DNA of 61,027 bases from Bacteroidaceae bacterium. GTDB taxonomy: Bacteria > Bacteroidota > Bacteroidia > Bacteroidales > Bacteroidaceae. Both the position numbers and the translations under genes were made by a program. Of the stretch, positions 43,285-45,874 are shown one piece after another (within the stretch, counting starts at the first letter, position 1; the number at the start of each line of letters is the position of its first letter). Location of the stretch: contig JAFSAT010000034.1 in the NCBI GenBank assembly GCA_017442185.1, positions 1 through 61,027 on the forward strand, given 5' to 3'. Under the pieces are notes generated by a model. That model was not told the DNA's origin. It saw only the letters and a program-made list of their open reading frames with translations, and ran no database searches.

Positions 43285-44418
43285 ATGCAGATCGCAGACA
43301 CCTCTTTCCTAATTATATATGTATCAGTTGTCACATTATTTTCGATAATCACTCTGATATACGTATATGTCAAGCATCGGGGAATATCACGTTCGGCAAC
43401 GGAAAAACTGCTGTCGCATCTGCGTATTTCGCGTGAGGGTCTTGCCATCTTCAATGCCCGTCGACGAATCGTATTTTCCAATGCTCTCTTCAGACAATAT
43501 TGCGACATAATATCTTCGGAACACCTTGTAGACCTCCGTCACATACTGCTGCAACCCGAATTTCGTACAATATCCCGATTCGTAGACAATGACACAGCCG
43601 ATAGAACGGAAGAGAATGTTCATTCGACAAAAATCGAAAAAGATGGAAGGGTCTTTTTGCTCAATTGCGCTCGCTTCGACGATGGTGGCTTTGAAATCTC
43701 CATAAACGACGTAACACAAATCGAAGAGCAAAGTCGCCTGAAGCAGCAATTGACACAGAATGTGGCACATGAATTTAAAACCCCTGTATGCAGCATACAA
43801 GGGGGATTGGAAACCATCATCCGAAACTATCCGCATAATATGTCGGAGGAGCAGTTGATGCACTTCCTTAAACGCTGTCACAGTCAGAGCAATCGCCTGT
43901 GCAATCTGGTGGATGATATGTCGCAGCTGCACGCAATGAGCAATTCGGTGCAGCGGATGAAAAAAGAGATTGTCGACCTCTCACAGTTGGTAAACAGTGT
44001 GCAGCACGAAGTTGCAGACAGGCTTGCAGCGCAAAATATGAGTGTATGCAACAACCTCCCCCAGCACCTGTATCTCGAAGGCGACCCCTCGTTGCTCTAT
44101 TCGATATTCCGCAATCTGTTCGACAATGCGATAGCTTATGCCGGGGAGGGCACTGCTGTCGGGCTCTCATGCTTTCGCAGCGATGAGCAATTCTATTATT
44201 TCAGTTTCGCGGATAACGGATGCGGTGTTTCCGACGAGCATCTTAACAGAATCTTTGAACGTTTTTATCGCGTAGATAAGGGCCGAAGCCGCAAATTAGG
44301 AGGGACAGGCCTTGGCCTTGCTATTGTGAAAAATGCCGTAACATTGCACAACGGTGCAATTTCGGCACGTCGTTCCCAAGAATGTGGGCTTGAATTTGTT
44401 TTTACTCTTCACCGGTAA
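43285..44418 (+). CDS. PhoR-like sensor histidine kinase (pair 1)
   Basis: The 377-residue product has one clear N-terminal helix (residues 8-29), a PAS-like stretch (about 47-145) and a HisKA motif with phospho-acceptor H162 (NVAHEFKTP). The ATPase N box is FRNLFDNAIAYA, with the G boxes FADNGCGVSDE and GGTGLGLAIVKN. Without a periplasmic domain it may sense through a partner such as Pst, as E. coli PhoR does. That is inference. Confidence 0.9.
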   Translation: MQIADTSFLIIYVSVVTLFSIITLIYVYVKHRGISRSATEKLLSHLRISREGLAIFNARRRIVFSNALFRQYCDIISSEHLVDLRHILLQPEFRTISRFVDNDTADRTEENVHSTKIEKDGRVFLLNCARFDDGGFEISINDVTQIEEQSRLKQQLTQNVAHEFKTPVCSIQGGLETIIRNYPHNMSEEQLMHFLKRCHSQSNRLCNLVDDMSQLHAMSNSVQRMKKEIVDLSQLVNSVQHEVADRLAAQNMSVCNNLPQHLYLEGDPSLLYSIFRNLFDNAIAYAGEGTAVGLSCFRSDEQFYYFSFADNGCGVSDEHLNRIFERFYRVDKGRSRKLGGTGLGLAIVKNAVTLHNGAISARRSQECGLEFVFTLHR

Positions 44419-44682: not shown

Positions 44683-44767
44683 GGAGAGGTGGCAGAGTGG
44701 TCGATTGCACCGGTCTTGAAAACCGACGTACTGAAAGGTACCGGGGGTTCGAATCCCTCTCTCTCCG
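44683..44767 (+). tRNA. tRNA-Ser (anticodon TGA)
   Basis: The 85-base gene has acceptor stem GGAGAGG/TCTCTCC and D arm GGCAGAGTGGTCGA. The anticodon loop is CTTGAAA with anticodon TGA. The long variable arm around GTACTGAAAGGTAC is typical of tRNA-Ser, and the T arm is GGGGGTTCGAATCCCTC. The discriminator is G and CCA is not encoded. The first anticodon-stem pair is a C-A mismatch. Its last 18 bases recur twice downstream at 115-base intervals. Confidence 0.96.
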
Positions 44768-44771
44768 CAAG

Positions 44772-44800
44772 AAAAAGGAAGCCTTAGCTTCCTTTTTTTT
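44772..44800 (+). terminator. terminator after tRNA-Ser
   Basis: AAAAAGGAAGC (44772-44782) and GCTTCCTTTTT (44787-44797) form an 11-bp stem with loop CTTA. The T-tract runs to 44800. It begins 5 bases after the discriminator base. Confidence 0.93.
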
Positions 44801-44810
44801 ACATTAGAGG

Positions 44811-44882
44811 GGATGAGAACACCCGAGTGGGGGTTCGTAATCGACGAAGTCGCTTGCCAAAGCAAGAATCCCTCTCTCTCCG
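44811..44882 (+). ncRNA. tRNA-like repeat unit 2 (candidate small RNA or decayed tRNA-Ser)
   Basis: GGATGAGA (44811-44818) can pair with TCTCTCC (44875-44881) with one bulged T, like an acceptor stem. GGGGGTTCG (44829-44837) repeats the tRNA T-arm 5' strand and loop. A 29-base insert (44838-44866) then precedes AATCCCTC. The insert is two tight hairpins, CGAC-GAA-GTCG and CTTGC-CAAA-GCAAG. No anticodon arm is recognisable. The span is 72 bases, the size of a tRNA. Expression is unproven. Confidence 0.5.
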
Positions 44883-44944
44883 CAAAAAGAAAAGCAGACA
44901 GAAACTCAAATTTATTTGAAGGTTTGTCTGCTTTTTCTTTTTGC
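44882..44944 (+). terminator. long hairpin terminator after repeat unit 2
   Basis: GCAAAAAGAAAAGCAGACA (44882-44900) pairs with TGTCTGCTTTTTCTTTTTGC (44925-44944) with one bulge. The loop region can fold further (CAAAT/ATTTG). The right arm supplies two T5 runs. The stem includes the last bases of the repeated tRNA tail. It is near-symmetrical, so it may also stop minus-strand transcripts from pstB. Confidence 0.75.
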
Positions 44945-44945
44945 A

Positions 44946-44999
44946 AGGATGCCCGCGGCAGCGCAAGGGATGGACAAAGTCAATCCCTCTCTCTCCGCA
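44946..44999 (+). ncRNA. tRNA-like repeat unit 3 (candidate small RNA)
   Basis: This unit shares GGATG, CCCG, AAGTC and the AATCCCTCTCTCTCCGCA tail with unit 2, in the same order, but is shorter. AGGGAT (44966-44971) pairs with ATCCCT (44983-44988) around an inner GAC-AAA-GTC stem. The conserved tail is thus again held in a T-arm-like hairpin made from different bases. Expression is unproven. Confidence 0.45.
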
Positions 45000-45001
45000 G
45001 C

Positions 45002-45043
45002 AAAGGGTGTAAATCAAGTAGTTACGAGATTTACACCCTTTTT
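45002..45043 (+). terminator. hairpin terminator after repeat unit 3
   Basis: AAAGGGTGTAAATC (45002-45015) and GATTTACACCCTTT (45028-45041) form a perfect 14-bp stem with a 12-base loop, and the T-run extends to 45043. Confidence 0.85.
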
Positions 45044-45044
45044 C

Positions 45045-45076
45045 ATACCCAAAATCAAGGTTGGGTGTATTTTTTT
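45045..45076 (+). terminator. second terminator closing the tRNA-Ser repeat region
   Basis: ATACCCAA (45045-45052) pairs with TTGGGTGT (45061-45068) with one T-G pair and an 8-base loop. Seven Ts follow (45070-45076). It lies just past the end of pstB and faces it. Confidence 0.7.
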
Positions 45077-45106: not shown

Positions 45107-45874
45107 TCATCCCATCTTTCCCGTCAGATAGGCTTTTGTGCGCTCATCAGAGGGGTTAGAGAACATTGCGTCTGTATTACCATATTCAACCAGCTCGCCA
45201 AGATACATAAACATCGACTTCGACGAGATGCGCATCGCCTGCCCCATGTTGTGGGTAACAATGAGGATGGTGACATCCTTTTGCAGCTCCTGCATCAGTT
45301 CCTCGATGTGTGCCGTTGCAATAGGATCGAGCGCCGACGTTGGCTCATCCATCAACAGGACATCGGGCTTCATAGCCAATGCACGAGCAATGCACAAACG
45401 TTGTTGCTGACCACCCGATAGGAATGTACCTTTCTTATTCAGCACATCTTTAACCTCGTCCCATAGTGCAACACTCTTCAAGCAGCGTTCAACGGTTTCA
45501 TCTTTATCGGTTTTAGACAGGCGAATCCCATTGAGTGCATATCCTGAAAGCACATTGTCGTAGATGCTCATCGTAGGAAACGGTGCAGGACGCTGAAAGA
45601 CCATACCTACCCTGCGGCGCACATCAATAGGCTCCATTGATAAGATATTTTCGCCATTCAACAATATTTCGCCGTCCACACGGATGTTGGGATATAGATT
45701 GTGCATCAAGTTTACGGCACGCAGCAGTGTACTCTTGCCGCAACCCGAGGGGCCCATTATGGCTGTAATGGTATTTCGTTCAATGGCAGCCGATACATAT
45801 TTTACGGCCATCGTCTGCTTGGTGTAGGAAACGCAAGTTTTATTAAATTCAAGTATAGGTGTTATTGATTCCAT
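45107..45874 (-). CDS. pstB: phosphate ABC transporter ATP-binding protein
   Basis: PstB powers high-affinity phosphate uptake. The 255-residue product has Walker A GPSGCGKST (about 41-49) and the Q loop VFQRPAPFP. The ABC signature LSGGQQQRL (about 152-160) and Walker B VLLMDEPTSALD follow. It overlaps the end of pstA by 13 bases. No phoU follows before the tRNA-Ser region, which differs from the common pstSCAB-phoU order. Confidence 0.96.
   Translation of the reverse strand: MESITPILEFNKTCVSYTKQTMAVKYVSAAIERNTITAIMGPSGCGKSTLLRAVNLMHNLYPNIRVDGEILLNGENILSMEPIDVRRRVGMVFQRPAPFPTMSIYDNVLSGYALNGIRLSKTDKDETVERCLKSVALWDEVKDVLNKKGTFLSGGQQQRLCIARALAMKPDVLLMDEPTSALDPIATAHIEELMQELQKDVTILIVTHNMGQAMRISSKSMFMYLGELVEYGNTDAMFSNPSDERTKAYLTGKMG

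Follow-up and report, generated by a model that had tools for sequence, protein, structure and literature searches.

The tRNA-Ser(TGA) gene is the sole tRNA that ARAGORN predicts in the window, that is, in the whole 61,027-nt stretch of DNA that was analysed. It is located between a histidine kinase gene and, on the opposite strand, the gene of an ABC transporter ATPase which we take to be PstB-like. The tRNA is followed by an array of hairpins and copies of its own 3' end, with the following features.

43285..44418, forward strand: histidine kinase gene upstream of the tRNA (ORF; Pfam HisKA, HATPase_c)
44683..44768, forward strand: tRNA-Ser(TGA) (ARAGORN; Rfam RF00005 at 44683-44767, 52.7 bits), its 3' end the anchor of the array
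44752..44866, forward strand: module U1, 115 bp, composed of tail, X1 and a stretch of several hairpins that runs from GGGAT (44810) towards ATCCC in tail copy 2
44752..44769, forward strand: tail copy 1, exact match, covering the tRNA from its T-loop to the 3' end and the next bases
44769..44800, forward strand: hairpin X1 of module U1, terminator-like (inverted repeat, arms of 14 nt, 93%)
44867..44981, forward strand: module U2, 115 bp, composed of tail, X2 and motif M
44867..44884, forward strand: tail copy 2, exact match
44884..44941, forward strand: hairpin X2 of module U2 (inverted repeat, arms of 28 nt, 79%)
44944..44987, forward strand: motif M, AAGGATGCCCGCGGCAGCG plus the hairpin GGGAT-G-GAC-AAA-GTC-A-ATCCC; tail copy 3 begins with the 3' arm of this hairpin
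44982..44999, forward strand: tail copy 3, exact match
45002..45041, forward strand: hairpin X3, apparently the older terminator (inverted repeat, arms of 19 nt, 89%)
45045..45068, forward strand: second terminator-like hairpin, 3' of X3 (terminator scan)
45107..45874, reverse strand: ABC transporter ATPase gene, the downstream neighbour (ORF; Pfam ABC_tran; 96% identical in the relative G016)

The 18-mer AATCCCTCTCTCTCCGCA, made up of the last bases of the tRNA and the next ones, is present in three exact copies starting at 44752, 44867 and 44982, spaced 115 and 115 bases apart. The mean chance expectation was 0.04 copies in 100 shuffles, none of which reached 3, and no further copy was found in the window with up to 3 mismatches allowed. 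The first-pass annotation had described a tRNA tail repeated in 115-base steps, each copy entering a different strong hairpin, and both statements hold (inverted repeats at 44769-44800, 44884-44941 and 45002-45041). Folding of the 249 nt at 44752-45000 is far more stable than that of shuffled sequence, with z values of -8.15 as DNA and -6.96 as RNA. A simple terminator scan flagged a sole hairpin, at 45045-45068, where 1.1 are expected by chance, and the label of terminator for X1 to X3 thus rests on the hairpin and T-run visible in the sequence. Among 39 tRNA rows of the same genome (38 tRNA matches are listed for it), some with short stretches, partial-tail copies occur downstream of tRNA-Ser(TGA) only; in three other rows the repeats are whole tRNAs in tandem. 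At the gathering score of Rfam 15 the tRNA was the only match in the window and in 19 further loci, with none for the module or for M, and weaker ones such as that to sX4 (34.6 bits against a gathering score of 70) overlap the tRNA.

In the relative G016 the tRNA is directly joined to the third hairpin, X3, and U1 and U2 are absent. Its alignment to the window is composed of two blocks, 1-87 (the tRNA, 97.7%) and 300-405 (94.4%), which are contiguous and share an 18-bp overlap equal to the tail. Since the tRNA joins X3 directly in G016 and the downstream gene is the same, the window holds 230 extra bp, corresponding to U1 and U2. These two modules were most simply gained in the window; by the other route, loci of the G016 type would have lost 230 bp through recombination between tails. 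Judged by its sequence, X3 is the old terminator of tRNA-Ser(TGA); it is also found directly behind the tRNA in G002 (contig 30), G019, G035 and, in another family, G057. G002 contains in addition a second tRNA-Ser(TGA) contig (C99) with modules. Altogether, 59 of the 61 genomes compared matched the window region, mostly through the tRNA itself, and U1 is common to G028, G033, G022 and G015, in differing downstream settings. Outside the tail, U1 and U2 are identical at 23 of 97 positions (25.3 in shuffles). As the bodies are as unlike as shuffled sequence, the equal length of 115 bp is a coincidence and a true 115-bp repeat period was ruled out.

The rtT repeats behind E. coli tyrT consist of one body repeated in tandem units, each of which includes about 19 bases from the 3' end of the tRNA. 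The first-pass annotation had drawn a parallel to rtT, which is apt for the arrangement, with tandem units behind a tRNA gene and 18 of 18 nt of the tail in three copies. It fails for the bodies, which differ between U1 and U2 and carry their own hairpins and M, and here several tRNA genes and many species are concerned. A chain of small RNAs with tRNA-like 3' ends, its tail under selection, was also proposed there and would fit the three exact copies. However, ARAGORN predicts no tRNA at copies 2 and 3, a terminator-like hairpin precedes each copy, and no promoter-like site was found by a scan whose patterns are from outside Bacteroidota. Moreover, tail copies drift in relatives: the third copy is rearranged in G028, the second is two bases shorter in G022, and in many arrays the copy is reduced to little more than AATCCC. 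Selection on the tail is unlikely because of this decay, and the rtT-like chain as a whole is highly improbable.

Module U2 ends in a conserved motif, M, consisting of AAGGAYGCCCGCGGCAGCG and a hairpin whose 3' arm opens the next tail copy. The covariance model R1, which includes the window's own copy, scored M of the window at E 2.1e-24. An alignment of 17 copies (A2) has 98.9% paired cells and a covariation score of 0.205, compared with 0.102 when shuffled (0 of 500 as high) and at most 0.045 when slid, the structure having been drawn from the same 17 sequences in a way that favours this score. Further pair types in A2 showed no excess over shuffles (413 of 500). The genomes compared are one per species and largely MAGs; several relatives are Bacteroidaceae or Bacteroidales MAGs, many from ruminant gut. 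Within the genus, 30 of 44 genomes matched R1 at E <= 0.01, 21 of these at E <= 1e-7, and at least one (G032) of the 14 congeners lacking a match does have a module missed by the filters. In the order, 64 of 393 genomes matched at E <= 0.01, most of them weakly. The cut-off of E <= 1e-7 left 40 arrays, 27 of them from the genus and 13 from outside it, the latter in families f81 (four genomes), f2 (two), f29 (one) and f22 (one). Among 10 matches read outside the genus, the weaker ones look coding-like and were left out of this count, as were several weak matches in the genus that are real modules (e.g. G026, G029, G025 contig 11). A covariance search in other Bacteroidales, suggested in the first-pass annotation, thus returned equivalents in the genus and in four other families. 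The alternative named there, neutral recombination debris, is too weak an account, since conservation of the motif next to the tail copy extends across families.

The genome of the window has one R1 match, and the short motif GCCCGCGGCAGCG has 2 exact sites in it, the one described here and one in apparent coding sequence (by eye). R1 outperformed a tight hairpin pattern, which in 295 Bacteroidales genomes gave 4 matches besides the window's own, none with a tRNA in its 3-kb locus. A pattern scan for M in 84,980 genomes yielded 77 stretches, 22 of which have a closing hairpin arm no more than 50 bases away. Fourteen of these 22 stand 65-209 nt behind a tRNA gene, 13 behind tRNA-Ser and one behind tRNA-Thr. 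The remaining eight are located at contig edges (L081, L088) or an IS edge (L085), are displaced with a tail remnant (L067), are cut short with the tRNA visible in another locus of the same contig (L102, L105), belong to an Alistipes copy lacking a tRNA (L125), or represent a likely chance match in Armatimonadetes (L101). Three further stretches (L089, L114, L138) lie behind tRNA-Ser with the closing arm changed or cut off. The other 52 have no arm and no tRNA within 800 nt, except L084 (tRNA-Met, 731 nt).

In 33 of the 40 arrays found at E <= 1e-7 (22/27 in the genus, 11/13 outside), a tRNA on the same strand has its end less than 300 nt upstream; 32 of these tRNAs are tRNA-Ser and one is tRNA-His. 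The seven arrays lacking a close upstream tRNA are at contig or IS edges (G009 on two contigs, G019, G004), are displaced with a tail or T-arm remnant (G024, G268), or have 228 upstream bases with no tRNA in them (G364 contig 32). Perfect 17-nt tail copies were observed at 10 other loci, all behind tRNA-Ser and one of another family, a count that is no frequency because the loci were chosen by similarity to the window or to M. For 90 far-edge copies, many of them decayed and some being chance scan matches, the local tail gave the longest match in 31, was tied in 34 and was beaten in 25. Among the 28 copies that match some tail over at least 10 nt, the local tail is the best match in 21, is equalled in 3 and is surpassed in 4 (L298, L303 and twice L314). 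The hairpin of M pairs GGGAT of the module with ATCCC of the tail, and its arm tracks a differing T-arm: GAGAT pairs with AATCTC in G268, and behind tRNA-Arg in G017 the arm CGGTGGGAT pairs with ATCCCACCG. The inner spacing of this hairpin ranges from 5 to about 30 nt. The module-like hairpin behind tRNA-Arg(CCG) in G017 (L329, 640-900) has a 9-bp arm matching the tail of that tRNA, and a stretch in G021 (L327, 1-80) is similar to it.

As read from its members, the module family has X, a hairpin or cloverleaf, followed by M and by the tRNA tail, which is copied more or less completely. Its hosts are tRNA-Ser genes in several Bacteroidales families and occasionally tRNA-His and tRNA-Thr; a hairpin of the same kind is found behind one tRNA-Arg. 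The phenomenon is real and wider than one window, with modules accreted behind tRNA-Ser genes. Modules behind different tRNAs are homologous: the His module of G003 and the Ser(TGA) module of G021 are 71% identical over 178 nt (E 1.4e-18), and U2 of the window and the Ser(CGA) module of G028 are 79% identical over 122 nt (E 1.2e-19). Modules are often multiplied in tandem; IS elements interrupt the arrays, and integrative elements displace them. The reading we favour, tentatively and at somewhat less than an even chance, is that the tails bound small hairpin modules without genes, which accreted by recombination behind tRNA-Ser(TGA), at its 3' end, and were then multiplied in tandem. A module would enter as DNA via recombination at the stretch from the T-arm to the 3' end of the tRNA. 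The tRNA would stay whole, the local tail would become a direct repeat at the far edge of the module, and the module's own hairpin would take over the role of terminator. The likeliest recognition site would be the hairpin formed between GGGAT of the module and ATCCC of the tail, and in later rounds modules would stack, duplicate and decay.

Several results count against accretion. The variable spacing of the M hairpin is odd for a fixed recombination site. The local tail is the best match for only 31 of the 90 far-edge copies, and seven of the 40 arrays, like the Alistipes copy L125, lack a tRNA close upstream. No recombinase linked to the modules was found, and neither excision nor a circle was seen. 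In the four genomes of f81, module pairs behind the same tRNA are 82-92% identical, compared with 78-85% for pairs of the same genome behind different tRNAs; as same-tRNA pairs are mostly closer, inheritance there looks vertical, with the modules inherited in place. Gene-carrying elements classically integrate at the 3' ends of tRNA genes. Structured modules without genes that recur behind tRNA-Ser in several Bacteroidales families, with an edge that tracks the local tRNA, would point, in major gut bacteria, either to a recombination route not yet recognised or to an RNA family not yet described. No published description of such modules was found in a literature search covering titles and abstract beginnings.

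Stable inheritance in f81 is in line with a rival reading, that the modules encode a structured RNA, as its genes or its 3' trailers, in which read-through of the terminator would give a cloverleaf RNA plus M, kept by selection and acting, for example, like a tRNA 3' external transcribed spacer. The X part is either a single long hairpin or a cloverleaf closed by a stem beginning at the 3' end of the tRNA. Of 22 loci in the genus, f81, f2, f29 and an Alistipes genome, 3 yielded no unit; among the 19 units folded one by one, 18 have this closing stem by reading. Compensatory changes were observed at 13 of 26 consensus pairs in alignment A4 and at 17 of 41 in A5, and X folds slightly better on the tRNA strand (13/19, p 0.005), all of which favours a structured RNA. 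However, the A4 consensus keeps the closing stem and one hairpin well, A5 is without the closing stem, and neither gives a whole cloverleaf. M folds slightly worse on the tRNA strand (lower energy in 12/32, p 0.03), and that strand is not enriched in G-U pairs (X 22 versus 23, M 9 versus 26). The strand tests lean towards DNA rather than RNA as the working form, without settling it. Further points against an RNA are the placement of M behind T-runs, the congeners without a match (14 of 44, G032 being a filter miss) and the Rfam result given above. A structured RNA is an unlikely explanation that nevertheless retains an appreciable chance. The 3'ETS-leuZ type of tRNA 3' external transcribed spacer RNAs, as far as the excerpt of PMC8166272 describes them, shares with the modules a structured sequence directly behind a tRNA; M differs in its position behind terminator-like hairpins and its tandem arrays.

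Elements that carry integrases use the same site. In L028 (228-1409, reverse strand) the tyrosine integrase of an integrated element is located directly behind tRNA-Ser(TGA), and L025 and L029 are alike by eye. In G014, module arrays are found about 37 kb from the tRNA, apparently pushed away. In Prevotella nigrescens (L230, 1501-1555) the old terminator of tRNA-Ser, together with a piece of the tail, stands without a tRNA next to an annotated Mpi-type DNA invertase; an integrated element has apparently displaced it.

The array could accordingly be read as scars of ordinary integrative elements, the tail being the attachment core and the module a remnant after gene loss. tRNA-Ser(TGA) is a real integration site, as L028 shows, and a displaced tail with an array or terminator occurs in G014, G024, G268 and P. 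nigrescens. Tandem stacking of integrative elements at tRNA genes, with CIMEs, is described in the excerpted text of PMC5704250 as site-specific accretion, and it resembles the modules in the direct repeats of the tRNA 3' end, the tandem stacking and the whole tRNA. Compared with the CIMEs of that excerpt, the modules are gene-less, about 50-190 bp long and have a conserved structured body. As far as the sequences were read, M is absent before the core at the four displaced junctions (G014, G024, G268, P. nigrescens), and no gene-carrying element with X and M ends was seen in an unsystematic reading of the loci. The close distance kept between X and M and the conservation of M across families are unlike random deletion remnants, and scars of this kind are quite improbable.

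In the M hairpin the start of the local tail is present twice, once inverted and once direct. Such a structure could also be a mutational by-product, arising at the palindromic T-arm through slippage and fold-back template switching. In agreement with this, several species carry T-arm antisense inside a hairpin at their Ser(CGA) loci, but the conserved AAGGAYGCCCGCGGCAGCG motif across families and the shared architecture of X are left unexplained, and we give the by-product only a slim chance.

Integron cassette arrays are tandem units with a hairpin site of constant arms and variable loop and with an anchor end. The modules resemble them in their tandem gene-poor units, their constant-arm, variable-loop hairpin and an apparent anchor end; they differ in that the anchor is a tRNA gene, no gene is recognised in the modules and the neighbours are a histidine kinase and an ABC ATPase. 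A bolder form of accretion, which we consider unlikely, is a new class of mobile element: a gene-less single-stranded DNA hairpin cassette that would insert behind tRNA genes, find its site by pairing the GGGAT arm with the T-arm strand, and build tRNA-anchored, integron-like arrays carrying terminators instead of genes.

REP elements associated with RAYTs are, in the excerpts of PMC6006769 and PMC3733652, short palindromic intergenic repeats found in clusters, a description that also suits the modules. The canonical REP foot is GT[AG]G (PMC6006769, in part), while the foot of the module is AAGGAY in most of the 17 aligned M copies, which sets it apart from canonical REPs, the atypical Bacteroidetes REPs of PMC6006769 being outside this comparison. 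The modules are tied to tRNAs and not dispersed, and a Y1 transposase (PF01797) was not found in the genome of the window (94.5% complete) and is present in 5 of 44 genomes of the genus. A REP/RAYT origin was rejected on the lack of PF01797, the single model match in the genome of the window and the lack of a GT[AG]G foot.

Carriage by phages or plasmids was likewise rejected, the matches to the phage record MT838243 and to a P. nigrescens plasmid being X3 with the tail only. MT838243 (L229), labelled Bacteriophage sp., has a bacterial tRNA-Ser with terminator at its start; by eye, its ORFs resemble those of chromosomal or mobilisable DNA, and it is probably not a phage. In viral contigs, the M pattern gave 2 matches, with no upstream tRNA and no closing arm in the bases shown, and the U1 core and M-plus-tail patterns gave none. 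An f81 module of 216 bases matched 10 plasmid and 14 phage records, in every case within its first 39 bases at most, which are the tRNA end.

Module arrays in L014, L147, L149 and L046 are split by an IS with the end CAACTTTTGCAGGTGAGCC (IS3-like by eye). Two module copies, in L125 (7300-7620) and L304 (1-280), stand behind terminator-looking hairpins with no tRNA nearby. In L038, L119, L315, L316, L317 and L318, of which L119 and L317 may be one contig, a hairpin behind tRNA-Ser(CGA) carries an antisense to the variable arm and T-arm, CAAACCCACGGTAC, with one mismatch in L318.
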